From: Aphrocallistes beatrix
Taxonomy: Eukaryota; Porifera; Hexactinellida; Sceptrulophora; Aphrocallistidae
Length of the DNA stretch: 64,000 bases
NCBI GenBank assembly: GCA_963281255.1
Contig: OY725499.1
Span: 992,001-1,056,000, forward strand
Direction: 5' to 3'
Shown here piece by piece: positions 227 to 64,000 of the stretch. The position numbers were made by a program, and so were the translations under genes. Below the pieces are notes generated by a model. That model worked only from the letters and a program-made list of their open reading frames with translations. It had not been told where the DNA came from and did not search any database. The first letter of the stretch is position 1. The number at the start of each line of letters is the position of its first letter.

Positions 227-702
227 CTAAAGAACATTGTGACACATCGATGAGATATAATGGCTATAGGATTCTGCTATTGGTTCAACATAATTCAGAT
301 TATTCACTTCCTTTTGGCTAGAGAAAGCTTGTTTTTCGTTCATTACTGCTTCCTCTGTTAAACATCTCACATCCAAACTGATACGCCCTTTAGGTTTATT
401 CTCTTCATCAAACATTTGAATTAAGTACCGACCGTACTCTTTAAAAATATCGACCTTATCACACGCGTGGTAGAGACACTCTAACCATAGGCGTCGTAAA
501 CTTTATTGCCTACCCTTGGACTACCCGGCCACAATAATCCAGGGCCGTTCAGTCAGTTAATCGGGCCGTATCTTCAGCTGATCCAGCGTTACTGTCAGCC
601 AAATGGGCCGTGAACCCTTGATTTACATGAGGAATTAGTACGAAGGTAAAAAATGTATTTATATTCCAGGATGGAAAGTTAGATAACAAAATTCTGATTC
701 AT

Positions 703-3162
703 TTACGTAATCCTATTTATCTTCATTTGCCTGTGCAGAAGATGCACAAAGGTTGGAACGTGTAGACCTCGAGCGTATGAATTCATACTAATCTGACTGA
801 GAGTTGTCCTTAGCTTTGACTTGATTCTAGCAAGTCCAGAAAAGGACCTCTCAGCTGAACAAACTGTTGTAGGTAGTGTCAATACGATGACAAGCAATGC
901 GCGGTACTGTACCAATACTTCGCCGATTTCACTACGCATTACATCCAGTATAGGTTCCATCTTGAAATCCTTTCCAAGCGACATCAAGCGAGCACGTAAT
1001 ATATCGCGCTCAGATATGAACAAACGCCAGTCGATATCATCGTGCAGTGTCTGCAATGACGGATCCACCTCACTATCAAAAAACAAAGCACTCTCCATAT
1101 GACCCACCATTGTTAAGTCTGCAATGTCATACTTTCTGTTGATACCTGCGATCATTTCGAACAGAAGAGCTTTATGAATTTCTGTGATGTATTGAGTGAG
1201 CAGAAGCTGCTCCTCATCTGCAGCAGTCATAACTTGACTCTTGCGCTCTCGCCTAACTGCCCTCTCAAGAAGTGGGCCTTCCATTTCCATAGAGTCAGCT
1301 TCTGTCTTCACCTCATCGAAGAATGTAGTTAGTGCATCCCAATCACTTGTTTTCTTCACCAACCGGTCTAAAGTGTCCCTTATAAGATCTCGAACAGTCA
1401 GAATGCTAAGACCAGGGGATTGGATTATACGATGAACAGGGTTTATAACAGAGTATGCATCTTGTAATACGCGAAGGCTGTAGTATGTCCGGTAGTTGTC
1501 AAGAAGGTTGATGAATTCTCTAGCTTTAGCCTTCTGGTGAGCATTTGGAAGACCAGCTGAATCATCATAGATGTCTACATCTAACCTCTTTACAAAGTAG
1601 TCCAAAAGTAAGGAATAGTTGTCCACAACACTTGATATAGCCCTTTCGTTACACAACCATCTCGTATCACTAAGTAACTTAACAGTTGGTAATTTACTTT
1701 TTTTGTTAGTCTTGGTCTTGTTTTGTTTCTGTTTGCCAATTATTTGCATGCACAAATCAATCCAATCATCGTCCTCACTCTCCGAGCTCCCTCCAACATT
1801 ATCCACAGCCTCTTCATCTTTTCTATCATCATTATTTCGTTGGCGTTCGTCCTGAAATTGTTGCCAGCCTGATGTACGCTTGATATGTCTCGCGATGCTC
1901 CCCACTACACTCATTGCGTGTTCGCAAGCGGGTACTGCTTGGACACCGTGCTTAAGCACCAAATTTAGTGCGTGTCCTGCACAATAAATAAATAAGGCCT
2001 TGGGATATTTACGTTTTATCCTTGTTTTTACGCCACTTAGCCTTCCCACCATTGTCGTAGCCCCATCTAGAACCTGCCCAACACAATACTTTTCGACATC
2101 CATCTGATATACATAAAGGCTATCCTCTAACAGGGTGACTAGTGATTCAGCATCTTTTTTAGCAGTGGCGTGCCAACCGAGGAAGGTTTCTTCAATCTCA
2201 AGGTTGTCGTTAACCGTCCGTACTACCACAGCTGTCTGTTCTAACCCTTGCAGATCAGGAGTTCCGTCTATCATAAAAGCGAACTTTCGATTACGAAGAC
2301 GTGTGCTGATAAGGCGCATGGTTGAAACTCCTACCAACGTGGTCATCTCCTTGATTACATCACCAGATGTGAATTTGGTCCTGTGGTTCCGCTCAAACCA
2401 CCAACGAATATCGGTTTGGTATCTTGCTAGCATTTTTGTCAATTGATCAAAGTTGCTCTCTGAGTGTGTGTGCCCCCTAAGGGGTATGTTCTGTTTGAGC
2501 GCAGTGCGAATAGTATCAAGCATGATCAGAAGTGCTTGTCTCCCCTTCAAAGAATCAGTAAGGCCTTGACCGAGGACTTGTCGGAGCACAGTACCCTTCT
2601 TCTCGAGAGCGTAATGAGCTTTAGCAAGATTATGATCCTTCGATTTGTCGTGGCTTGCCCATGTTCCTTTCACCCCCATCACGCGTGAGAAGTTGCTGAC
2701 ACCTTTGGTTAGCATATTTATTGCATATTTGGATGACTGACAGTACTTACAGAAGGCAGTACCGGATATCTCATCGTAAGTCAGCCAAGGATATCGTACC
2801 CCCCATTCCGGAATATACTTGCCCCTCCTTTTCAATCTCTTGGGTTTTGGTTTCTCTATCCCGTCTTCAGGCACCATTATGTCAGGATCTTCTGAGACAC
2901 CGGGTATGGCGCTATCGTCTAAGTCTTCCGAGATCTTGTGGTGTTCTGACTCTGAGTCAGTCAGTCTGATGGTCACAGTGTCGGACAGTGGAGACTCCAC
3001 ATCGTCAGCGATTTGAGATCGGGAATTAACCCTAAACATGGATGCAGCCACTGCTTGCATCTGCGGGAGACTTGTTTCAATTCGACGCTGTTTTTCAATG
3101 GCTGCTTGCTTTTTGGCCCATCCTCCAGTAGGTTTTAATGAAGTACGTGATGAAGAGGACAT
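703..3162 (-). CDS. hAT transposase (BED/TTF-type finger plus hAT dimerisation domain), 819 aa, intact
   Basis: The transposase cuts and pastes the surrounding element. Residues 1-115 are charged and end in a basic patch (KPKPKRLKRRGK) that could direct nuclear entry. Residues about 120-180 form a BED/TTF-like zinc finger (CKYC, then W.SH and KDH). The RNase H-like core shows candidate acidic residues in FMIDGT (about 298) and QVLDGA (about 365), then a CAGHALNLV block (about 393) matching the conserved C..H motif of hAT enzymes. The C-terminus has LPTTVCSAERSFSGLARIKSKLR, the hallmark hAT dimerisation segment containing the third acidic position. The layout resembles ZMYM/52-kDa-repressor-like hAT proteins. 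There is no stop or frameshift over 819 codons, a normal length for the family. An ATG at 3162 sits 382 bp inside the right end. Likely functional; domestication is unlikely given the intact termini. Confidence 0.9.
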   Translation of the reverse strand: MSSSSRTSLKPTGGWAKKQAAIEKQRRIETSLPQMQAVAASMFRVNSRSQIADDVESPLSDTVTIRLTDSESEHHKISEDLDDSAIPGVSEDPDIMVPEDGIEKPKPKRLKRRGKYIPEWGVRYPWLTYDEISGTAFCKYCQSSKYAINMLTKGVSNFSRVMGVKGTWASHDKSKDHNLAKAHYALEKKGTVLRQVLGQGLTDSLKGRQALLIMLDTIRTALKQNIPLRGHTHSESNFDQLTKMLARYQTDIRWWFERNHRTKFTSGDVIKEMTTLVGVSTMRLISTRLRNRKFAFMIDGTPDLQGLEQTAVVVRTVNDNLEIEETFLGWHATAKKDAESLVTLLEDSLYVYQMDVEKYCVGQVLDGATTMVGRLSGVKTRIKRKYPKALFIYCAGHALNLVLKHGVQAVPACEHAMSVVGSIARHIKRTSGWQQFQDERQRNNDDRKDEEAVDNVGGSSESEDDDWIDLCMQIIGKQKQNKTKTNKKSKLPTVKLLSDTRWLCNERAISSVVDNYSLLLDYFVKRLDVDIYDDSAGLPNAHQKAKAREFINLLDNYRTYYSLRVLQDAYSVINPVHRIIQSPGLSILTVRDLIRDTLDRLVKKTSDWDALTTFFDEVKTEADSMEMEGPLLERAVRRERKSQVMTAADEEQLLLTQYITEIHKALLFEMIAGINRKYDIADLTMVGHMESALFFDSEVDPSLQTLHDDIDWRLFISERDILRARLMSLGKDFKMEPILDVMRSEIGEVLVQYRALLVIVLTLPTTVCSAERSFSGLARIKSKLRTTLSQISMNSYARGLHVPTFVHLLHRQMKINRIT

Positions 3163-3377
3163 GCTAATTTGTAAAAATTCCTATTGTATAAGCACAGAAT
3201 ATGAAGGCTGGCTAGATTATAAGAAAATCAATGGATATATACATATTGGAGTTACAGTGACCAATAATGGGAGTCTAATAAAACTATATCATTAAAAATA
3301 TTACGATTCGTCGCGATGCGACTATCCTGGATGGGCAAAATTGTAACAGTCAATTACCAGTACATAATAGCACTCAG

Positions 3378-3500
3378 CTTTTTACCGGGTAGCACCCGGC
3401 ATTATACCGGGTAGTACCCGGACTATACCGGGTAGCACCCGGCACTATACCGGGTAGTACCCGGCACTATACCGGGTAGCACCCGGCATTCACTCTGGGC
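3378..3500. repeat. Subterminal palindromic tandem repeat in the hAT element
   Basis: Four to five near-identical units of about 22-24 bp contain ACCGGGTAGCACCCGG or ACCGGGTAGTACCCGG, separated by CATTAT or CACTAT. Each unit is itself a hairpin. The position just inside the right TIR suggests transposase-binding repeats. Confidence 0.8.
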
Positions 3501-4254
3501 CGCCCGGCCATTGCCGGGTAACCGGGTGGGTTACGACGCCTATGACTCTAACTCCTCGTCAAAGATATCAATTTCAATATTAATATCTTTGATTATATTC
3601 GAACCAATCCATTTGTAAATACAGACATTTGTAGAAAACTATTTGATAAGAGGTAGACCTTGCCTCTACTGGCAGCATGGATCTCTTGAATAACTTTTGT
3701 CTATCGTTTTGGAGTTTCAGCACTAGTCTACTTGCCTTTTTTGATTCAGGTTCATTGAGTCCATAATAATCGAGGTCGAATTGAAACACAGTTATTGCGA
3801 TGTATGTTGCTGCAGATAAACTGGGCTTTTGTCTCCATTGGAGAGCATAAAACTGTTCCAATTCTCTAAGATGATAGAAATTGAGTAATTCGAACATTTT
3901 AGAAATTAGAACATCAAAATCAGGCGAGAAATTGAAGTTATTAGAGATTTCTTGGATGATAATGTTAAGTATCTCAGTTTTTGATAAAGGAGCAGAGGGC
4001 GCATCTCCTTCAAGATCGGAGATATGTTTGGAAGAGTAGAGAGAATGGTACAATTGTGTATGTGTCATTCTAACAAGTAATTCCAGTCTTGATCTGGTAA
4101 CACTCAAATCCACCGCTGTAAAGTTTTGAACAGTGAGGCCGAGAAACTTCAACGTCTTTTTTACTATAAGCACAATAGTAAGTACGGCTTCAAGTGTATA
4201 GGTAGTGGCACCAGACATACTGGATATCTCAGAAACTGTTAGAAATACAGCATC

Positions 4255-4731
4255 TTCACACCCTGCGAAATATTCGAAATGTCCTGTCGTCTCGTTAGGA
4301 GTGACAATGATGTCGTAGAGAAATTCTTGTGTATCTGCGGCTGAATTGATTTCCTGAGATTCTATTGATTTAACTTTTAGTGGCTTCAAATCTGTGCCAT
4401 TGACCAGTGTGGTATTTTCAGAGAGTTTTTCAATACCCTCCCAACCCAGTGTTGGGCAAAATGATTGCAAACGATCTGGACGAACTGTAACATAGACTGC
4501 TCGAGAAGTTTGTTGCTTGTTAGTGAAATTGACAAACGGCTGTGTATCAGTGAAACGAAAGGGTAGATCATTTATAGAATAAAGGATACGATCTCTTTGA
4601 AGTATTTTAGAGACATAAATTACCTTTGAGCATCCATTTTGTGTTTTCACATTATCGCCCACCCTTATCGAGGATATGTCCTTCATACTATTATCATACA
4701 TCAGAACTTTGGTATTTTTAGTGAAACAACA
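4255..4731 (-). other. Hint (intein/hedgehog-type autoprocessing) domain of gene B
   Basis: The domain starts with the Cys-Phe of GGGCCFTKNTKVLMYD, the expected nucleophile position, preceded by a flexible glycine stretch. It continues with DISSIRVGDNVKT, typical of the early Hint strand and turn. It closes with FLYDIIVTPNE and FEYFAG, which resemble the closing strands of Hint modules. The TxxHPF element is present as TDTQPF, which would lose the catalytic His. Classification is from motif reading only. Confidence 0.68.
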
Positions 4732-5606
4732 ACCTCCACCTCCACCACTATGTCGATATCCACTTCCTGGCTGACCGTTAGCTGTAAACTCAAAAGAATT
4801 TTCTTCTTTCATTGATGAGCCCCCATACGGGCTCATACTTGGTATATATATACTCTCTAATATCCCATGTTTTGCCTCACTATCGATATCTGAGTGATTG
4901 ATATCTGTTGGAATGAGCCAAACTAAATAGTTTCTCCAATTATTTTCATTAACAGAATCTGGAATAGTCAATCCATTGTTTTTACAATTCCTGATCCATC
5001 CGTTAATCTCGCTATCTGATGCCAATGAAAAATCTTCCATTCAGGATTTTCCCATTGCCCCTGGGAGTATTTCAGTTTATGTAATTCAATCCAATACGTA
5101 CTATTGACTACTTTTAGATAATCCGCTTTGGTTGATTGGTTTGGATCATAACCATGTACTTGTTTGCTGAAAACATATTTATACCAATCGAATGCATGCT
5201 TAAGAAGGTCTCCATTGTGGCTATCAACAGCTGAGTTAATTTTTCCGATTTCTAATTGTTTCCTCAAATCACTAGTCTGATAATATATCGACTGACATAG
5301 AACGGCAACACTGAAATCAGACCAGTATCCATCGCTCAATCCAGGGACAGCTCTTGTGATATCTCCTTCATAGGTTGTTGCATTGTGATTAGGGAAAAAT
5401 AAGTCTACGAAAGTATTTCCCTTCATAAAATAAGCTTCAGTGTGTCTTCCAGGAGTAGAACGTTTGAGTTTACTTACAAACGCATCTCTTGCCATTTTCC
5501 CTATATTACTGTGAAATTCAGGGCACTGTGATACTAAATCATTTATATGAGCTGATATATCAGCTTTAGATCCTGCTGAAACACACATTTTGCATTCTTT
5601 AGCCAT

Positions 5607-6298
5607 TATAAAAATCTAAATATATTCCAAAAAGTGCTTGTTCAAACAAAAATTCTAATATTAAAAATAGAAATGAGATTAAGCCATAGGAGTATTTCGT
5701 TAAATCTAGCTCTTACTTGATACATTTGCAAAGAAAGGAGCAAGGACTCTCAAATACCTAATCCATTAAATTTATTTGATCACTCTTTTCCTATTTTATA
5801 TCCTTCATTTTTAGTTCACAACAATTCTTTAAATTTATAGGAGTATTTTTTTTAATTATCAAAATAATAGGAATTTTTACAAATGTTGGTCTACAAACCA
5901 ACAGTGCAGCACCATTAAAATACTAACCAGAAGTATGAAAATATCTACATATAAATGCTAATACGCGTATTCACATTTTAGATATCTAAATTCCCATAAG
6001 AAAAAGTAAATCCCATTCCCACATGGCAACCCTGCTACAATGTGAACCCTTTAAAATTGGATAATACTGTCAGTTATCTTTTTATTAAAAGTATACATCC
6101 TACATGAAGTACACATCCTAATATGTAAAAATATAAACACACGTAGTATTATACTAGAAGCCTAAATCACATATATCAGCAAGAATTCAGTATATAATCA
6201 CACCACTAAAGTATCTCGGCATTATAGTGCCGATACTAAAGGAAAGAAGTTCAAACTAAACATTTCCATGTTCTAGATGTCAATATGCATAACGGACT
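5607..6298. other. Spacer between gene B start and gene A end
   Basis: AT-rich non-coding DNA. It should contain the gene B promoter and the gene A 3' end; no box can be named with confidence. Confidence 0.4.
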
Positions 6299-7395
6299 CT
6301 AGACATGTGTTACTTCGATCGTGAATGTAGCACTTGTAGAGCCATAATGATTGCTGACAGTGAGCTCAAAGGTTGTTTTACTGTAAACTGGTGCAGTAGT
6401 TGTCAGGGAGATCACACCAGTTTTATTATCGAATAAGAGAAAGGATGGCAATTTTGGAATTAAGATCCACGTTTTCCCAAACTCGCTGCCCGGTGAGCGA
6501 AGAGTAGGATAGGATTTCGTTAGGTAACTGTACTGATCTAGCTGAATATTTTTCATCATTAAATGAGATGGCTTCATGCCTTGCATTGTGAGTACCCATT
6601 TCTTAGGAGTAGTATTGACTATTAGTTTCCCGGTATCGTCAACATTCAGGTAACTAGTTGTTTTAGCTATATGTGAAGCTACATTTTTTATCGTGAAAGT
6701 ACCACTATGGAGGAATTTTTGTATTACTGTATTCCCACTAATTGTCTTAGAAACTTTTTCATAGTTTGGAGTATCTGTTATTTCACAGATCCATTTTTGT
6801 TCATTATCATCTCCGTTGGTTGTTGCACCCTCTGCAATGACATTATTACCCTTTAGCTTTATAAAAACGGCCTTTTGTGGTGCATTCGGTGGATAAACAA
6901 TGGTTGCAAATTTTGCATACCCAAATTGATCAGTTTTTATTTCCCAGACAGTGTCGGGTGTATGCGTCGCTGTTGAAATATCAAATGTCAAATCTGGTAA
7001 TATCCTGACGCAGTTTTGTATAGCACTATTTTCAAATAAGGATAATCCTACTGAATCAGCTAGGCCATTTGTTTTGATAACCTGGAAGTAATCAATGTCT
7101 ACATACAATTTTTTAGCGTAACTATTTTCAAATTTATCTACTATCACAGACCATTTAGCACTTGGATTATGGAGTAATGTTGCGTGAAAAACCTCCATTA
7201 TCGGCTTCAAATTATCAAGTCGAACCTGTTCTCGCAATGCTGTTGCGGCATCTTTCATATTTGGATCTTTAGAATCGACATATTTTGCTATAAATTCATT
7301 AAGCACTTCTTTCATAATAATAGTAAAATCAGACGTGAGATCCTGTAAGTTAAGGAGTTGAGGTAAGATGTTTAAGAATTGATATTGCTTTATAT

Positions 7396-7880
7396 CAAGG
7401 TTGAAACCGCTTCAACCAAATACCAATTTAACCGAATAATGAGTAGACCAAATAATTTGGTTAACCGAATAATGATCAAACCGAATATTTGGTCAACCAA
7501 ATAATTTGGTCAACCGAATAATTTGGTCAACCGAATAATTTGGTCAACCGAATAATACTTGATTATATTTTTGCATAAATGTTTATATAAATATTTATAC
7601 AAAAATATATTCAAGTATAAGTAAGCCTATTATATTTATTTGTGTTCGGATCACTTCTTGTAAGAACATGTGATTATTGTGTTGGGAAAGCATGCAAATT
7701 ATTTGTTTGGCTAAATATTCAGTTGGCCAAATTATTCGGTTGACCAAATTATTTGGTTGACCAAATTATTTGGTTCTCAACCGAATACCAAATAATGATA
7801 TTTGGTGACAAACCAAATATCAATTATTTGCAAATAATATTTGGTTAAACCGAATAATCAACTATTCGGTTTCAACCCTG
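7396..7880. mobile_element. hAT-type MITE with inverted minisatellite arms, inserted in gene A
   Basis: The ends are CAAGGTTGAAACCG (left) and CGGTTTCAACCCTG (right), flanked by the 8-bp duplication CTTTATAT at 7388-7395 and 7881-7888. The arms consist of roughly 17-bp units such as AACCGAATAATTTGGTC, direct in the left arm and inverted in the right, around an AT-rich core. There is no coding capacity. It interrupts an otherwise open frame. Confidence 0.88.
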
Positions 7881-9775
7881 CTTTATATAGTTAAGAAACT
7901 CGAAAGAATAATCTCCACTTGGGTCCAAAATTTGCAAAAGTGTAACGAATTTCTTAACGCTCATTGCTAATACTTGGGAGCTGCCATTCGGATTTAACAT
8001 GTTAGCTTGCAACCATGTTATATAGTAAGGAGAGGTAATGTATCTAAACAATGCATAAGCCCAATACACTCTCTCAGCCATTGCTTTGTTCGCTAAGTTT
8101 TCGATAATAGAGATGGAGTTCTCTTGAGCAGTTTTTTCCTCTGCTGTGCTGGTCTTTTCACTTCTCATTTGTTGTATTAAAGCCTGACTATCTTTGTGTA
8201 TGAATCCTGCATACTTTGCATAATTAGTATTTTGATCTGCGAGATATTCACTCATCAAAGGGAAATGCTTTTCAAAACGCATTGTGTAAAAATTTTGGGT
8301 TTGATCTTGAAAAGTTGATTTATAGAGTGTATCGTAAAAGAATCCTTTGTTTAACATTTTAGAAGCACGTATACCATTTAATTCATTAGATCCTGCTTGT
8401 GTACTGTTAGCTAGTGCTTGTGACAAATAGGGAACGGAGAGAAAACCATAGAACTTACTGTTATGGTCCCGATTATCAACAGCAATATTAAGAATATCTG
8501 TCATATTTGGGGGATTTAAGTTAATAAAGTCATGTCTTAAGGTATCATCCATGTAATACTGAATTGTTTTATAAAAGTCCTGCATAGCTTCCGATTGAAT
8601 GACATCAGTTGTGCCAGTTGATGACTTAGCATTTGGGTCCATCGCAATGAGTCCATATATATTAAGATTGATTGCAGCTAGAGACTGTGGTGTAGCCATG
8701 AGAGAACGAGGTTTTACAGATATCAATGGCTCTTTGTTGGACTTTCGAAACATCAAGCCATTACTACCGTCTTTACTAAAGTCGATAGATCCATTGGTTG
8801 GTAGACCAGAGATATCGCTGTGTTCATTGGATAGATCATTCCACCACAAAGTGTTGTTCCTTACACCGGACTTTGTTACAGGGGTATCATTTAACAACAT
8901 TTTCCCACGAGACACAGCAAAATTTGATTGTGCACGTCCATTCGAATATACCATATAGTTTCCCAAGATGACTGGATTCTTTGGGGTCCCTTGAATAGCG
9001 TACACCGTGGCAGACTTCACATCAGTTCCAAAAGACATTGCACCACTAAACATAGTGCCAATTTCATTCATGTCGTATACCATGTCATCAGGAAATACAG
9101 ATGGATATTCTGTATTCTTTCGTGCGTTGTCAGTAGGCGGATTTGCAAGATTTTTGTTGAAATTAACCCTTCTTCCTTGGCTGATAGTGATTGTAGCAAA
9201 TCCATTAAAATTTCCAGGATTGTTGTCTACCTTCCATTCTACACCTGTTTCAACATCAGTAAAAGTGGCATTGTAAATGACTGTATCTTGTCCTGCTATC
9301 TTCGGACCTTTAGTAACACTGTATGAATATTCAAATTCTTTCTCAGCCCAATGTGCACTTCCCCATGTCGATGATTTAGTATCCCAATGCAGTTTCAATC
9401 AAATGCCTTCCTTTTCCGCTTTTGCGCCGGCATCCTTTGAAAGTGCCACGTTAAATTCAGGAGGTTGGAGCAATAGCATAGCTGGTTTTTTTATTTCACC
9501 TTGTTGGAATGAGCCCAATGCTGATTTATTGTCATGGTTGAAATCAAAATGTCCCCCAACAAATGCGTTTCCCACACCATGGTGAAAAGTAACGTCTGTC
9601 TTATCACTCCACGAATAGCTGTTCGCATGAATTTCATTATGATTAAAGTACACCTTTTTGTTATCTGGATTCGCTTCATTCTTTATGAGTGAAATAACAT
9701 GCTTAGTATTCTCATAATCTTCTGTATTAGGATCATCTGTTTTCAAATGAATTTCGTATTGTTGATGATTCTATT

Positions 9776-10056
9776 AAATTTAAATTTAATTATCATATTT
9801 ATATTTTTCCTTGTGAGAGCTTTTACTAAGATTAAGTTATAAAATTTCATACACTGGATACATACGTGGATATATCTGTAAATATCCTAGAGTAGCTGAG
9901 TTTCTTTGAGTTTCTGACAAATGCAAGTACATTTTGTCTACAAATGGAGCGTCCCTGTCCCTAGTGCATACACCAATACCTTATTTCTCGTTAAAACAAG
10001 TGCAAATTTAGGGGTTTGAGATTAGGAGCGCATCTCTGGAGGGCTGTATAATACCT
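9776..10056. other. Gene A intron, unclassified part
   Basis: No gene or element end recognised. An AT microsatellite follows at 10057-10078. Confidence 0.3.
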
Positions 10057-10078
10057 TGATATATATATATATATATAT

Positions 10079-10776
10079 GTAACGAATTGATTGAAGAAAC
10101 TGCCAGGCACAAAAAGCTGATTTTTGGCATGTGGGAGTCTTTTGGCTATGGGTCCACTAAGTTATGAACTCTGTTGCGTGAAATTCTGAGACACTGCGTG
10201 AAATCCTGAGACACCCGCTTAGAAGCCTTAGCAAGCTCTGATCTAATATATTATGCAACTTGTAGTTCCTATTACAGAATGATATTTCACAAAACATGAT
10301 GATTTTGTTCTATTTTGATCCTAGAAATAGAATAGGATTTGGAATCAAAATAGAACAAAATCATCATGTTTTGTGAAATAATCATTGTGTAATAAGAACT
10401 ACAAGTTGCATATCATCAGATCAGAGCTTGCTAATGATTCTAAGTGAATGTCTCAGAATTTCACGCAGTGCCTCAAAATTTCACGCAACAGCTCAGACAA
10501 AAATGTCGACTCATCATGGAATTATGACGTCATTGTCAACCTTTTTATAATTATAAATTTCTGTTTTTCTACTATAACTCAGCCGTTTTAGGTGATAGAA
10601 GGCTGAAATTTTAAAAGAATGTGTATATTAATATATCTCACATAAAAAAAAGCTATCATCAAAAAATGATGACTCATCACTTTGTTATGACATCATCATT
10701 ACGCATCAAAAATTAAAAATTTTGTGATCTTCCGTGCGATATCGATTATAACAGTAGGACAGACGTATTTAGAGCA
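10079..10776. mobile_element. F1 family copy, interrupted by a fold-back element
   Basis: It starts with GTAACGAATTGATTGAAG, the standard inner end of F1. It is split at 10173 by the GTTGCG fold-back element and resumes at 10490 with AGCTCAGACAAAAATGTCGA. It is truncated after ACAGACGTATTTAGAG where an unrelated CAGGGTTGG-type sequence begins. Confidence 0.75.
10173..10489. mobile_element. GTTGCG fold-back MITE nested in F1
   Basis: The left arm begins GTTGCGTGAAATTCTGAG and the right arm ends with CTCAAAATTTCACGCAAC. The inner arms pair over about 140 bp around 10320. Flanks are AACTCT and AGCTCA, an imperfect 6-bp duplication of the F1 sequence. The same family occurs at 57212-58048. Confidence 0.8.
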
Positions 10777-11556
10777 GGGTTGGCTAATTTTACCCACCCC
10801 CGGGTTAATCCCGGGCTGGGCAAAACCCCTTTTTGTGGGTTAAACTGGGTTAAAGTGGGTTTTATTATAATGTACTTGTAAATCAAGTTAATTTTTGCGA
10901 TATCAATTGTTTGGATTGAGAATCCTTATTCCGTAAGTATTCTTTTGGAGATTCCGTAATCATATTTTTTAATAAGACCTCTGATGTATGAACAATGGGA
11001 TTTCTTAAAAGTTACAACAATCTGAGGTGCTTTAAGCAAACAATCAAAGGATACTTTAGTTTAGTCCAGAACAAACTTCGAAATAGATTAAGCTTAGAGA
11101 AAACAGCAAAATTGGTAATCTGTTATCGGGAATTGAGAGGTTCAGTGGAGTTTGACTGGTGATTTCAAACTTACTAAGTGGTTTAGTATAGTAAGTCTTA
11201 GTCCGCGTCCTTTTTTTCAATATTTTTTTATATTCCTGACCAGTGGAGCACAGGTGGGACACAGCCTAATTGAAATGGGTGAACACATTTTTGAAAAATG
11301 CCATTTTATGATAGAGGTTCTGCTTCTCATGATGGATTTTGAATATGTTCTTCCTGCCGAAAATTCGATAAAAAGATGATTGTGCTCCACCTGAAGTGGG
11401 GCACAATTATCTAAACCTCTTGGGACCTACCACCAAGTTGCTAATAAGGGAACAGAATTAACACAAAAACTTCACCTGAGCCCTGAAAATTGGTTGCTAA
11501 TAGAACAATATAATAATGGAGTTGCTAATAAGTGAATTCCACTGAATATAATAGTA

Positions 11557-11709
11557 CAAGTGACTCCGCTTAATCGGGACACTTTGGTCCTGGATATTTT
11601 ATCCCGATTAACCGATGAAATTTAGTATTAGCTTTTATGTATGGGAACCATTGCGTTCCTGGAGACTTGTCCCAATTAAGCGGTTGTCGCGATTAAGCGA
11701 AGTTGACTG
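11557..11709. mobile_element. pogo/Tigger-like MITE
   Basis: TA-flanked element. The left end is CAAGTGACTCCGCTTAATCG; the right end inverted is CAGTCAACTTCGCTTAATCG. Internal copies of CCGATTAA and AAGCGG occur. Non-coding. Confidence 0.7.
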
Positions 11710-12352
11710 TACTTGAACCTCTATAAAGACTTTTTCTAATATAAACCAACTTATTATATACATAATTCCCGAAAATGAATCATAAATCGTATGCAAAATA
11801 AACTCGAGCAGTGTTGAAATTCTCATACAAATCATATATGTAATTCAAATTTAAAGTAACAGTCATTTCAAAATTCGAGGTTGCAGGTCAATCATTCTTT
11901 CGATACGACTAGTTGGTCTGTGTCTAAATCAGGGTATTATACAGGCCTCCAAAAATACTCTCCTAGTCTCAAACTCCTAAATTGTCATTATTCGCTCCAA
12001 AACACTTTCGGGGTTAAAATCCTGTGCCTAAAGGAGTGTCTCGCGCTCCTAGATAATCCCTTGGTCTAAGCAGTTAAAGATAGATTCGCTTCTGGTAAAT
12101 ACATTCTAAGGTGGTTACACTATATAAAATCCAGAGTAAATTATTATATGGGATAAATTATAATATATTGTCTTACGAGTGGATATACTGTGGATCTAAA
12201 ATTGGTTTAATAGATATGAATCAATTTAAGGCCTGCAATAGTCTTATATGGTGTATATTCCTTAATTTTGTATCTCAAGATATTGCATCCACTTCTATAA
12301 GCTAGTAAAAATTAAACAAAACCAAATTACATGTGTAAAATAATCAACTCAC

Positions 12353-12442
12353 GATTGTATGATTTCCTGATAAAAGAGGATTTTCTGTCACTGGCGTGAC
12401 AGTGTCCGAAACTGGAGACTCTTGAGGAAAAGCTTCAGCCAT
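12353..12442 (-). CDS. Gene A, putative exon 1
   Basis: Thirty codons from ATG at 12442 are followed by ATC|GTGAGT, a good splice donor. The phase fits the acceptor before 9770 exactly, and the peptide flows into HQQYEIHLKTDDP. An intron of about 2.6 kb filled with F1, fold-back and pogo-type elements separates them. The join is inference from phase and splice signals. Confidence 0.55.
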
Positions 12443-19925: not shown

Positions 19926-20309
19926 TACTATCTCTTAGGGATTTTCCCCAGCATTAACATTTAGTTCCAATTAACAAAAACTATTTTCAACAGCAACGCA
20001 GTAATGCAGCAACATTCAGTCATCTAATCTCAAGCCTATTTTACCAATTAATCATTTATGAATGATTATCACTTAAAAGTACAGTCGAAACCCAATTTTT
20101 TAATATTTCTTTTTTTCGATATAAATAATATTTTTAGGAATTTTAATAGCTTAGATTTGTGATTCAAATATAATTATTCTCAAATAAGTCTTAAATTGTT
20201 TAAGTACTCTTCCTTTTTGCATTTGGTAATATCTTATTTTAACTAGTTAATTCAAAATTAAACTCGATCTATATTAGTATTCTTAATAAATTGTAGCAAT
20301 TCATACACA

Positions 20310-21780
20310 ATGAAATTACACAAACACAATCGATCTGCCGAATTACATGGCGCTGTACTTTCCGAAGAAAAATTTACTTGTACTGCCACAGTTCTTCAAG
20401 TTGAAGATGTGTTTACTCCTGATTCTAATGCCCATATTCACCCTGCTGAACCTGGATTAGACATTAAGGTAAAGATTACGAAGAAAGTGCATGGATATTC
20501 AAAACAAAACATTTTTCGTTTCGCTTCCGCAATAGTAGATGTGATGTCTTCTGATATTCATTTGGATACACTATCGATCAGTCGTCCAATACCTGCCAAT
20601 CTTATGCGTAGTTGCAATTATCAACGTCATAGAAATCGGCCTACTGAACTCCAGGACATATCGTTTGTACTAGATTATAATTGGATCCATCAAGAATTTG
20701 TTCAAGGGGACATTAAAATTGCCGGGGCTCGCCATATTGTTTTTGCCACGTTGCCACAACTCCAACTCTTAAATAATGCGAGTGTAATTTACTGTGATGC
20801 AACGTTCAAAGTTGTCCGACAACCATTTAGCCAGCTGTTTAGTTTCCATTCTTTTCTTGGCGATGCTAATAATGAGAATGTCAAACAAGTTCCCCTCGCA
20901 TTCATAATGATGTCACGTCGACCCAAAAGAGATTATAAGGCATTATTCAAACATATGAAAGAAATAATCCCCATAATGAATCGAATCAGGCGAATTACAG
21001 ATTTTGAAGCAGCTATCTGGCACGGAGCAAGTAAGATTTTTCCGAACATAGTGGGTGTAACTTCCATTGGGGACAAGCTCTATGGAGAAAAGTTCAGGAA
21101 TTGGGGCTAGCAGTTGCATATCGTACATCCGGACCTATCAATGAATATATTAAACTACAGGGTGTAACAAAAGTGTTGTCAACTTTGAATACAAGCTCTA
21201 ATTAATAGGTGAACAAAAATTTGATCATGGGAAAGGAAAAGTGTATTTCGCAAATGATGTTATGACACAAAATATAGTAATGCGGGATAGCTAACGACAG
21301 GCTAAGAGTTTTGTATTTGATTACTATTGGTTCGATATCAATCAAGCATAATGATGAATTATCTAGGGTGACAACACTTTTGTTACACCCTGTACTAAAT
21401 ATGTCACAGAAATCGTAGCAAGTAGAAGCTCTGATATCCAACCATTGCTCGATTATATGAATAGAACATGGATCAGTGGCGCGATGTGGTCACCTGCTGA
21501 TTGGTGTATCTACAAAAGAGCTATCCGAACAAATAATGATGTAGAGGGATGGCAAAATCGTTTAAACACAAGAGCTCATCATAGTAATATCTCATTTTAC
21601 ATCCTAGTGTCCTTGCTACAAACAGAATCTAAACTCGTCCTGATCCAGCAACGACTCAATTTTGAGGACAAACTACCAAATTCCAAAAAAAGCAAACTCT
21701 TGCATTTCAAGGTCAATTATTTCAACTTAATAAAACTAATACATTCTAAGCTTGTACCTTTAATTTCAGGAAAATTTCAA
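20310..21780 (+). pseudogene. Mutator-like (MULE) transposase with FLYWCH-like N-terminus, broken
   Basis: The 266-residue frame 20310-21110 begins with a FLYWCH-like remnant (KLHKHNRS to AHIHPAEPGLDIKVKITKKV). The MULE core follows: VIYCDATFKVV (first Asp), PLAFIMMSRRPKRDY, then ITDFEAAI (second Asp). A stop at 21108 precedes AVAYRTSGPINEYIKL in another frame. The gene is then split by the MITE 21158-21392. It resumes at 21393 and reaches WCIYKRAIRTNNDVEGWQNRLNTRAHH, the conserved block with the last catalytic Glu. Coding similarity fades after about 21770. A stop after ATGTCACAGAAATCG at 21416 is a further lesion. No TIRs could be paired around it. Confidence 0.85.
21158..21392. mobile_element. 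Mariner-like MITE inside the MULE pseudogene
   Basis: The 24-bp TIR begins CAGGGTGTAACAAAAGTGTT. The element is flanked by TA at 21156-21157 and 21393-21394. Without it the MULE frame is continuous across the site. Confidence 0.88.
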
Positions 21781-22302: not shown

Positions 22303-23098
22303 TACTAGTTGATTTGAAAAATTTAGGATTTTTCTTTGGAAATTTGTGACATTCCTGCGTTGCTATGGGAATGCATTTTGGTATCTGTCAACACTAGATT
22401 TTCAAATTTGATCGTATTTGATAGGCAATATACTACTTCCTATTAGATGATAATACAATTTGAACTAATTAACTCTCAAATTGATTAGTTAAACAAGTTG
22501 TATGAATGGTGTGAAAATCAATTTTTACATCTTGAAACACTCTATGATAAATATAGATATTGCTTTTAGCTTAAAATAAAAATTTGTGTAAAAGAGGGCA
22601 ACATATGTAACTTTATTTTCGCTTTTTTTATTCATTTAATAAACTTTGTATTGCTCTTTTTCATCACATATCTCACATCATTTTCTCATTTTTATATTTC
22701 GATTTTTACATCGCTATCCTGTTTCAACAGCCGAATTCTTTTCAATACATACTGTTTATAGAATCATCAACAGTAAGCCCCCCCTAGAGCCTGTGGAGGC
22801 ATGGTGCCGGGCAGTGGAGCAGTTGGGGAAACTGTGGTATGGCAGGACTTCACACAAACTTATAGGTTACAACTAAACCCCAAAATTATGTTAATTGCGT
22901 CTAGATATATTTCCCAATTACATTTTATTTCACTAAAGTCCGATATTTTCTTTTCCCTAATTAACAACAAAAGCTTTATATCTAAGATCTAAGATTTAAA
23001 GTTTTTTCTGGGGGGTAAGTCCCCCAGACCTCCCCTTATCCTCGCTCGATCTTGCCCCCAGGTTTAGTTTATTTTCTAAAACTTGGTTCCTATGTATT

Positions 23099-23963
23099 CA
23101 AGGGACCCTAAATAATCCATTCATCTTCTTGGGAAACTATATGGTATATTCGAATGGACGTGCACAATCAATACCCCTGTAACAAAGTCCGGTGTAAGGA
23201 ACAACACTTTGTGGTGGAATGATCTATCCAAGGAACACAGCGATATCTCTGGTTTACCAACCAATGGATATATCGACTTTAGTAAAGACGGTAGTAATGG
23301 CTTGATTCGAAAATCCAACAAAGAACCATTGATATCTGTAAAACCTCGTTCTCTCATGGCTACGCCAGTCTCTAGCTGCAACAATTCAGAATATATATGG
23401 ACTCGGTAAACAGACACTTCGTCGCACGGACATTTTGTCGCCAGACATTTCGTCCTCTGAACATTAGTTACTGGACAATGTGTAGCGGAATTTTCGCCTA
23501 TGTTTCACGGGAATTTCGCCTCATTTGGGACTAATATAAACGGATTCCTTAAAAGCTGTGCTTTCACGATAAAGAATGTAGCTTCAGCGAATGCTAAAAT
23601 TAATAGCTACCTGAATGTTGACAATACTGGTAAACTAATACTTAATACTACTCCGAAGAATTGAGTACTAACAATGCAAGGTATGAAGCCCTCTTATTTA
23701 ACTATGAGAGATATTCGGCTAAACAAGTATAGTCACTCGGTAAAAACATACCCTACTCTCCATGAATCTGGCATCGATCATCTAAAGAAGTGGATTCTAA
23801 CACCAAATTTACCAAATTCCTTGCTTTTGATAGCACAACTGGGATCATTTTCCCAGATAAAGGTGGTGACGAATTATCTTATTCAAACTTTTGAACTCAC
23901 TGTTACCAATCATTATATGGTTCTACTAATGCTACGTTTAAGATTGATGCAACCGCATAATGT
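23099..23963 (+). pseudogene. Decayed partial copy of gene A
   Basis: Segment 23099-23408 matches the gene A region 9000-8640 (GNYMVYSNGRAQ, NTLWWNDLS, SDISGLPTNG, VKPRSLMATP), with an internal deletion of about 12 codons. Segment 23545-23963 matches the gene A C-terminus (FTIKNVAS, YLNVD, MQGMKPS, TFELTV), with a TGA replacing a Trp codon and later frameshifts. The middle third is missing and replaced by about 135 bp of unrelated repeat rich in CATTTTGTCG and TTTCGCC. It is in the opposite orientation to gene A. The TAA at the end matches the gene A stop region. Confidence 0.85.
23409..23544. repeat. Insert replacing the middle of the gene A copy
   Basis: It carries related words such as CGGACATTTTGTCGCC, AGACATTTCGTCC and GGAATTTTCGCC. 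It probably derives from a MITE; no duplication could be defined. Confidence 0.4.
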
Positions 23964-62700: not shown

Positions 62701-64000
62701 ATGTCCAACGCAAAACAGATTTTCATTGATCACTTTTGAAATTACCCTTCTCAAACCGTTGTGAACTCTATACCACTTTGAATATTTCTCAAAAAATTGA
62801 TTTTATGTCCAGTCCTATTCCAAATGAAAGATCAGCGCGAATTCGTTGGCAACGGCTGCATCAAAGATTCAAAATAGTTCCCTACCAATCAACCAGATTG
62901 TTGTATTTGAAAATGAAAGGAGCTGATTGCTCTCAGATCAAACGCGTAGTAGCGATTGAAGAACTGTACGATATCATTAAGCGTATCCATATAGAGCACA
63001 ATCACGCAAGGAGAGAAGGCTTAAATAAGAGATTGACAAAAGAATTTCATGGTATCACTGAGAAAGCTTGCACCCTCTTCTTGGAAAGTTGTGAAGAATG
63101 TCATTCACGCAAAGCCAAAAAATCTGTAAAATATGTTGTTGTTAAAGTCAATTTCTTCAACTCAATTTTGTCAAGATGCCAGGTTGATTTGATTGACTTT
63201 AGGGACATGTCAGAGCAGCATAACATGTCAGAGTCAGGCGTTCCTTATAAATGGTTGTTGGTTTATCAGGACCATTTTACCAAGTACATTCTTCTTCGAC
63301 CTCTCAAGCACAAATCAGCTGTAGAGGTAGCAGATACATTGGAAGATTATTTTTGTGAAATCGGACCTCCCCATATTCACCAGTCTGATAATGGCGGCGA
63401 ATTTTGTAATAGCATTCTATTTTCTCTCATTGATGAAAAGTGGCCCTCTACCAAGATAATCCATGGAAAACCACGCCACCCAGCAAGTCAAGGGTCTGTA
63501 GAGCAAAGAAAAAAAAAATATAACTTTTCATTCTACCATTGGGATGACACCATACGAGGCTCTTTTCCACCACAAACCATCTTTTGGGCTATCTGATCTA
63601 GGAATACCCGAATAATTTGCTCCTCATATTCAAAACGAGGAAGATCTTGAAGTTGTTATTGGTGAGATCAATGCCTCAACAGAGGACGCTCAGATGAACA
63701 ATTCTCTGCCCTTATCTCTTGATATACCTCCCATGCTAACTGGGGATGTCAACGGCCAACAGCAAAATTCTGATGGGGATAGTGAATCATTTGTTATCCC
63801 GATTCCTCAACTTGATTCATATATAGATGAAATTTCTCAGCCTATTCCTGATGGAACTCGTGTCTTTGGGTCTGACTCCTCTCCCAAGTCCTTAAACTGT
63901 GTGGTATGTAGTTACGAAACCAGTGGCGTACATTCTTGTCCAGGATGCAGTGGATTCGTACATGTTCATTGCGGTATGACCGAAGGAGAAGAAGGTTATG
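62701..64000 (+). pseudogene. GINGER/KRBA2-like integrase, frameshifted, runs off the window
   Basis: An ATG at 62701 (MSNAKQIFIDHF) is followed by a frame change near 62740. The frame is then clean to about 63510. It contains an HHCC zinc-binding region (IHIEHNHARREGLNKRL, then CEECHSRK). It also holds a DDE integrase core: QVDLIDFRDM (first Asp), HQSDNGGEF (second Asp) and ASQGSVEQ (Glu, about 37 residues on). At an A-rich run near 63515 about 50 residues are lost and the frame shifts to GMTPYEALFHHKPSFGLSDL. A TAA follows at about 63616, then an acidic linker and a C-terminal zinc-ribbon (CVVCSYETSGVHSCPGC, HVHCG). The order matches KRBA2/GINGER integrases of animals. It is probably a dead transposon copy. 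It starts just after an F1 microsatellite. Confidence 0.82.

Follow-up and report, generated by a model that had tools for sequence, protein, structure and literature searches.

Hint domains are known in several protein combinations, and four of these come closest to the two genes described here. In the AIG1-Hint proteins, reported from Acropora (PMC3723955), Biomphalaria (PMC7053062), amphioxus (PMC12373286) and Glomeromycotina (C46, PMC8778642) and including GmGIN1 (in PMC2362128), Hint is combined with AIG1(GIMAP), presented in PMC3723955 as an immunity-associated GTPase family. Hint is also found in the Hog proteins (hedgehog and relatives), in the VWA-Vint proteins (Buerglin 2008, PMC2362128) and in inteins such as PI-SceI. 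In a window of 64 kb (C13:992001-1056000, the whole stretch analysed, from a eukaryotic assembly of 100.5 Mb in 28 contigs), two large genes, A and B, lie side by side on the minus strand, and B carries a Hint domain. We consider it likely that they are a decayed bacterial-type two-gene unit, acquired as a pair, which would have gained an intron, been duplicated, been kept under selection and finally been broken. In the open-access literature searched, from which preprints are absent and subscription journals mostly missing, neither a description of an A-B pair nor a link of AIG1-Hint to a bacterial gene pair was found, and within that literature the paired family appears to be undescribed. 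The Amphimedon transfer paper (PMC4784904) does not contain the words 'hint' and 'intein'.

Gene B resembles the AIG1-Hint proteins by its Hint domain followed by a C-terminal extension, and an AIG1-Hint protein encoded on contig C7 of the same genome aligns with B of the bacterium Microbulbifer taiwanensis (hereafter Microbulbifer). It differs from them in that an N-terminal domain of its own replaces the AIG1 GTPase and the following helical stretch, and the host AIG1-Hint copies are open; the likeness of the extension was seen with the host C7 protein. In the Pfam scan, window B has no AIG1 domain before the Hint, whereas the C7 genes have one. Like the Hog proteins, B carries a C-terminal Hint with a starting Cys and a following extension, but no export signal is seen in B by hydropathy and the Pfam Hint model (PF01079) remains under its cut-off (20.5 bits against 29.7). 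The likeness to VWA-Vint lies in the Pfam Vint model, whose cut-off window B passes (28.2 bits, cut-off 27), but B has no VWA or Vwaint match in Pfam, and a true VWA-Vint gene lies elsewhere in the genome. As for inteins, a profile built from B and related proteins hits the PI-SceI Hint in its N-terminal part (E 4e-10), but no HN-C/S/T end was seen by eye in the B alignment. Hom_end_hint is also under its Pfam cut-off (29.1 bits against 32.1).

Bacterial pairs in the same order

GTDB contigs (one genome per species, 84,980 species) were scanned with two patterns taken from the gene A core. Only one of the 30 pattern matches was a relative, in Microbulbifer (27% over 187/188 residues, E 2e-16), where a 1,318-residue A is followed 87 bp downstream by a 794-residue Hint protein, B, which turned up beside A though the query was the gene A core alone. 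When Microbulbifer A and B were searched by tblastn against 72,556 plasmids, each matched two records, and these were the same two:

Gloeothece verrucosa PCC 7822, plasmid Cy782201: A then B
Pantoea sp. At-9b, plasmid pPAT9B04: A then B

Profile searches of genomes gave a fourth locus with A and B together, 89 bp apart, and a fifth A whose contig ends inside the gene. Full or long matches came from 3 of the 398 genomes sampled in the phylum (one being Microbulbifer; one more short), 1 of 369 in the class (two more short), 1 of 390 in the order (one more short) and 2 of 48 in a second order; these samples overlap and contain repeated hits, and short weak matches were left out of the family count. 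At all four bacterial loci where both genes are visible, B follows A on the same strand with a spacing of 12-209 bp, and the window pair and the second pair of the eukaryotic genome (copy 2) likewise have B immediately behind A, with no change of strand. The bacterial flavour perceived in the sequence-only reading is supported by these relatives. No third shared gene was recognised by eye at the four bacterial loci.

The 508-residue piece of window A matches the five bacterial A at E 2e-39 to 2e-46, and the window B pieces match Microbulbifer B at E 1e-36 and 3e-31, with a protein identity of 22-43% between the eukaryotic pieces and the bacteria. Since single pieces reach E 2e-46, the similarity is, judged from these scores, not due to chance. 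Among themselves, the A proteins of Gloeothece, Pantoea and two further genomes share 51-73% identity, and Microbulbifer A is 25-27% identical to these. At E 1e-3, 16 of the 21 eukaryotic A and B pieces match bacteria, 12 of them best with Microbulbifer and four with the other clade; the four (the window A piece, with 164 vs 153 bits, copy 2 pieces 1 and 2, and a fragment at 23 kb in the window) all come from, or reach into, the N-terminal half of A.

A hit on an Aeromonas plasmid was a short Hint-only match lacking annotation and was not taken as a family member. No relative was found in 50,697 phage records (queried with the window A piece, Microbulbifer A and B and a further bacterial B) or in four scans of IMG/VR viral contigs (with the AIG1-Hint protein and three further queries, A4, A5 and A6), and on these scans a phage or virus origin of the pair was rejected.

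In the family, gene A encodes about 1,310 residues, with a beta-rich N-terminus, a long helical body holding hydrophobic helices and a beta C-terminus with He_PIG, while gene B encodes about 800 residues, with its own N-terminal domain, the Hint domain and a C-terminal extension. The only named domains found are the Hint of B and the weak He_PIG end of A, which exceeds its cut-off in one of four bacterial A. Gene A has otherwise no Pfam, NCBIfam or PHROGs match, its best E against PDB by sequence or profile is 0.86, and for the window genes NCBIfam and PHROGs gave no more than weak matches. Pfam hits under the cut-off (DEP, WWE_2, DUF5937, Endotoxin_M, DUF2937, Poxvirus_B22R_C and others) were taken as chance, and no toxin domain was found in the proteins scanned. 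By a 19-residue hydropathy scan, each of the four full bacterial A has several hydrophobic segments, all between residues about 755 and 1055; the four bacterial B have none, and none of these eight intact proteins has one at the N-terminus, so that the earlier suggestion of exoproteins is not supported. Structure prediction, proposed earlier as a check, gave AlphaFold models too poor for a fold to be drawn; the order beta, long helical body, beta in A is read from such a poor model, and Foldseek with it returned nothing at E 0.001; the best-ranked rows were mostly cadherin-type chains with a TM-score of at most 0.06 of the query, from which nothing was drawn.

Structure and decay of the eukaryotic copies

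The features of the window pair and of the other copies are as follows.

12442..6302, minus strand: gene A, exon 1 12442-12353, exon 2 from 9770 down to 6302
12353..12442, minus strand: putative exon 1 of gene A, predicted from sequence, ATG at 12442, donor GTGAGT at 12352
9402..9770, minus strand: first open piece of gene A exon 2, acceptor AG at 9772-9771
9399..9401, minus strand: in-frame TGA in gene A; copy 2 is open at that place
7879..9398, minus strand: N-terminal part and helical core of gene A, matching Microbulbifer A residues 168-693
7396..7878, no strand assigned: insertion in gene A, 483 bp, with many inverted repeats
6302..7395, minus strand: C-terminal part of gene A with He_PIG
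5615..3583 and tail 477..230, minus strand: gene B
5019..5615, minus strand: N-terminal domain of gene B, ATG at 5606, matching Microbulbifer B residues 3-192 at 33%
5019..5040, minus strand: frame break of gene B, which is here some 9 residues shorter than Microbulbifer B
3583..5022, minus strand: middle part of gene B, matching Microbulbifer B residues 202-662 at 26-27%
about 4728-4233, minus strand: Hint domain of window B
486..3544, minus strand: hAT transposon in gene B, 3,059 bp, transposase open reading frame 703-3180
230..477, minus strand: C-terminal tail of gene B past the hAT element; its DNA is 80% identical to that of copy 2 over 245-418
23095..23944, plus strand: partial inverted copy of A
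C13:738945-747984: copy 2, a second A-B pair about 250 kb away, with order and strand as in the window pair
C15:3558354-3560751: third long copy of A, no B match found alongside

The sequence-only reading had announced two large codirectional genes with Hint and He_PIG modules; both coding regions are present, the Hint passing the Vint cut-off and the He_PIG match at the end of window A falling just below its own (23.5 bits against 24, Pfam). Both genes are broken. Besides the TGA, gene A contains the 483-bp insertion, flanked by a 10-bp duplication, TGCTTTATAT (7386-7395 and 7879-7888), and near 7112-7141 it has lost in frame the stretch equivalent to Microbulbifer A residues 787-1038, which contain all four hydrophobic segments of that protein. 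This middle part is present in copies 2 and 3, and the loss of exactly the hydrophobic stretch in the window could be chance. The remaining pieces span Microbulbifer A 91-786 and 1039-1312, so that homology extends along most of the length. Gene B is interrupted by the hAT element, which ends in perfect inverted repeats of 14 bp and is flanked by a perfect target duplication of 8 bp, ACTCTAAC, at 478-485 and 3545-3552; the tail of B, 477-230, lies beyond it, which accounts for the start of the locus at 227 in the sequence-only reading. GC-rich tandem units (CCCGGTATAGTGCCGGG-like) occupy 3368-3488, inside the element near its end.

A spliced exon had been proposed for gene A. The acceptor AG just before 9770 occupies one and the same alignment position in the three long A copies, and the residues after it read ...QQYE or ...DQYE (by eye); because of this shared acceptor an intron in gene A seems credible, while the putative exon 1 has no match in the other copies of the genome (best E 0.38). 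Within the putative intron, the stretch 10171-10491 is its own inverted repeat (87%) and sits between the repeat parts 10059-10171 and 10490-10774, a repeat that also occurs upstream of the window and close to copy 2.

A piecewise search of the genome gave two A-B pairs, a third long A copy without B and a fragment of A, and a search with the Microbulbifer A protein returned the same three long copies (at least 11 matches), in agreement with the multi-copy family expected earlier. The partial copy announced near 23.1 kb is also there, matching window A DNA at 92-94% over 23095-23404 and 82-84% over 23558-23736. Every copy found is broken: copies 2 and 3 of A carry other lesions (stops and frame changes), and the Hint of copy 2 is interrupted by an element of about 1 kb with inverted ends of about 400 bp, which recur about 4 kb from the C15 copy of A. 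Homology between the two pairs is mostly limited to coding pieces and repeats. The ratio of nonsynonymous to synonymous divergence (dN/dS) between pairs 1 and 2 is 0.115 for gene A (761 codons, dS 2.2) and 0.187 for gene B (685 codons, dS 1.5); when the C15 copy is compared, synonymous sites are saturated, with a ratio of the corresponding proportions (pN/pS) of 0.35-0.38. A tree built on one A block joins the three eukaryotic copies in a single group (support 100/99). The low dN/dS, together with the shared splice acceptor, suggests that A and B once lived as eukaryotic genes, and the data fit a long residence with selection at the protein level and later decay.

The GC content of the window is 35%. 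A neighbouring gene encodes a Brr2/SNRNP200-type helicase, and a MULE transposase piece (20262-21110) and an integrase-core (rve) piece (62730-63596) are remnants of other mobile elements.

Gene B and the AIG1-Hint genes of the host

The block-B histidine is a feature of the Hint superfamily, and it is present in 4 of 4 bacterial B and in 3 of 3 AIG1-Hint proteins of this genome. The starting Cys of motif A is kept in window B (GCCF), and all four bacterial B have it too, the motif reading SSCF or GSCF there. The host genes are:

C7:786489-795423: three tandem AIG1-Hint genes, open frames of 790-799 residues

In the two that were scanned, AIG1 matches at E 1e-26 and 8e-27 and Vint at E 1e-8 and 2e-8; one of the genes has 32 matches in the genome, mostly to the AIG1 part. 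The Hint and C-terminal part of a C7 protein aligns with Microbulbifer B residues 294-768 at 23% (E 3e-29). The part beyond the Hint alone scores 24.5 bits against the bacterial profile (E 8e-7), the best of 1,000 shuffles reaching 3.1, while window B pieces, at 8.3 and 6.4 bits, and the tail of copy 2, at 4.4, score weakly yet above all shuffles; the middle C-terminal piece of copy 2 is not among the top rows listed in that comparison. The Hint part of B is not purely foreign, because it also occurs in three intact AIG1-Hint genes of this genome. A tree built on Hint plus the C-terminal part places the eukaryotic B with the host AIG1-Hint genes (84/85), next to Microbulbifer (100/100), but long branches meet there (program warning) and the grouping was given no weight. 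The eukaryotic AIG1-Hint cassette (Hint and C-terminal extension) might itself have come from gene B of the captured pair and been re-used on a host immune GTPase, an idea that we regard as improbable.

Two of the tandem C7 genes share 98% DNA identity over 1,530 bp, from the Hint to the C-terminal side, against 79-91% protein identity of the frames overall, and the Hint part therefore looks like a product of gene conversion. Near C16:1159702, an open frame of 1286 codons combines a perforin-type domain (MACPF, E 3e-10) with a Hint module (E 4e-31). A VWA-Vwaint-Vint gene lies at C7:588259 and a second strong Vint match at C10:108904; Vint genes were reported as seemingly lacking in Metazoa (Buerglin 2008, PMC2362128), and these two would be of note if the genome is an animal's.

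Origin and function of the pair

Several hypotheses could be issued on what the pair does. Tentatively, A could be a membrane-inserting protein made in the cytoplasm and B its Hint-processed partner: A would be made soluble and its buried hydrophobic helices would then insert into a membrane, while the Hint of B would form a thioester at the Cys that follows the N-terminal domain of about 300 residues and would release or lipid-tag that domain, as in the hedgehog Hog proteins, the C-terminal extension choosing the acceptor. A structural role is possible.

It is unlikely that the bacterial pair is a plasmid-borne defence module of abortive infection, with B as a Hint-regulated switch and A as a membrane effector. 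The patchy distribution, the two plasmid-borne cases, the hydrophobic helices of A with no export signal seen, the type III-B CRISPR genes lying about 3.4 kb from the Gloeothece pair and the AIG1-Hint relatives in a GTPase family described as immunity-associated (PMC3723955) would suit such a module, but PADLOC gave only a weak Hint match (E 0.037) and at the other three loci no neighbour was recognised as a defence gene, the judgement being made only from annotation or by eye.

The history could also be reversed or shared, A and B being old eukaryotic genes that bacteria took from eukaryotes. The occurrence of the Hint and C-terminal cassette of B in eukaryotic AIG1-Hint genes, a combination that has been described in coral, snail, amphioxus and Glomeromycotina, points that way. 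The five bacterial A, in contrast, form two deep clades and come from a cyanobacterium as well as Pseudomonadota, partly on plasmids and partly elsewhere, the bacterial layout is intron-free and closely spaced, and the eukaryote has yielded only broken copies; we hold this reverse history to be quite unlikely. That the genes still work, the TGA, frame breaks and insertions being sequencing errors, recoding or introns, is very unlikely: a dN/dS well below 1 and the probable intron in A are compatible with it, but transposons with clean signatures and target duplications sit inside the coding frame, inspection by eye of the 483-bp insertion showed no canonical splice pair that would restore the frame, and copies 2 and 3 carry lesions of their own. 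Bacterial contamination, suggested by the existence of bacterial relatives, is in practice refuted by the several copies on contigs of 4.8 and 4.2 Mb, the transposons inside the genes, the shared splice acceptor and the low protein identity to bacteria.

The acquisition of A and B as a pair has to be set against several observations. The direction of transfer is deduced from few bacterial sequences and, on the eukaryotic side, from this genome alone, and we infer the cooperation of A and B only from their adjacency. Five of the 21 eukaryotic pieces (the first piece of window A, both B tails, one piece from copy 2 and one from copy 3) have no bacterial BLAST match at E 1e-3, and the N-terminal piece of window B alone matched no plasmid, so that the bacterial protein was needed to link gene B to the plasmids. 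Synonymous sites are near saturation (dS 1.5-2.2), which makes the dN/dS ratios rough, and the AlphaFold models have a mean pLDDT of 37.6 and 38.4. In both eukaryotic B copies Gln replaces the block-B His, and these B are for this reason classed as Hint homologues, with no claim of an active Hint. Base composition proves nothing on the origin, because the third-position GC content of A and B (0.28-0.34) is unlike that of Microbulbifer (0.75-0.76) but like that of Gloeothece (0.33), and two host genes are higher (0.40 and 0.74). Two separate acquisitions of diverged pairs are possible, although the shared splice acceptor argues against them.

The likely course thus remains that an ancestor of the eukaryote acquired A and B jointly, that gene A gained its intron afterwards, that the pair was duplicated with its gene order kept, and that the copies evolved under purifying selection before all those found were broken. 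The picture of a system that was acquired, amplified and decayed, put forward in the sequence-only reading, is supported by the copies, their decay, the intron and the bacterial pairs; its exoprotein nature is not, and the transfer from bacteria and the functions of A and B are deduced. The finding is real and unusual: a bacterial-type pair kept as a unit in a eukaryotic chromosome, spliced, selected and then dead, would be an unusually complete record, and the intact bacterial copies are usable for experiment. A bacterial protein with a Hint and a C-terminal extension matches a eukaryotic AIG1-Hint protein over about 470 residues, and this match bears on the origin of the eukaryotic Hog and Vint domains, which was stated as unknown (Buerglin 2008, PMC2362128).

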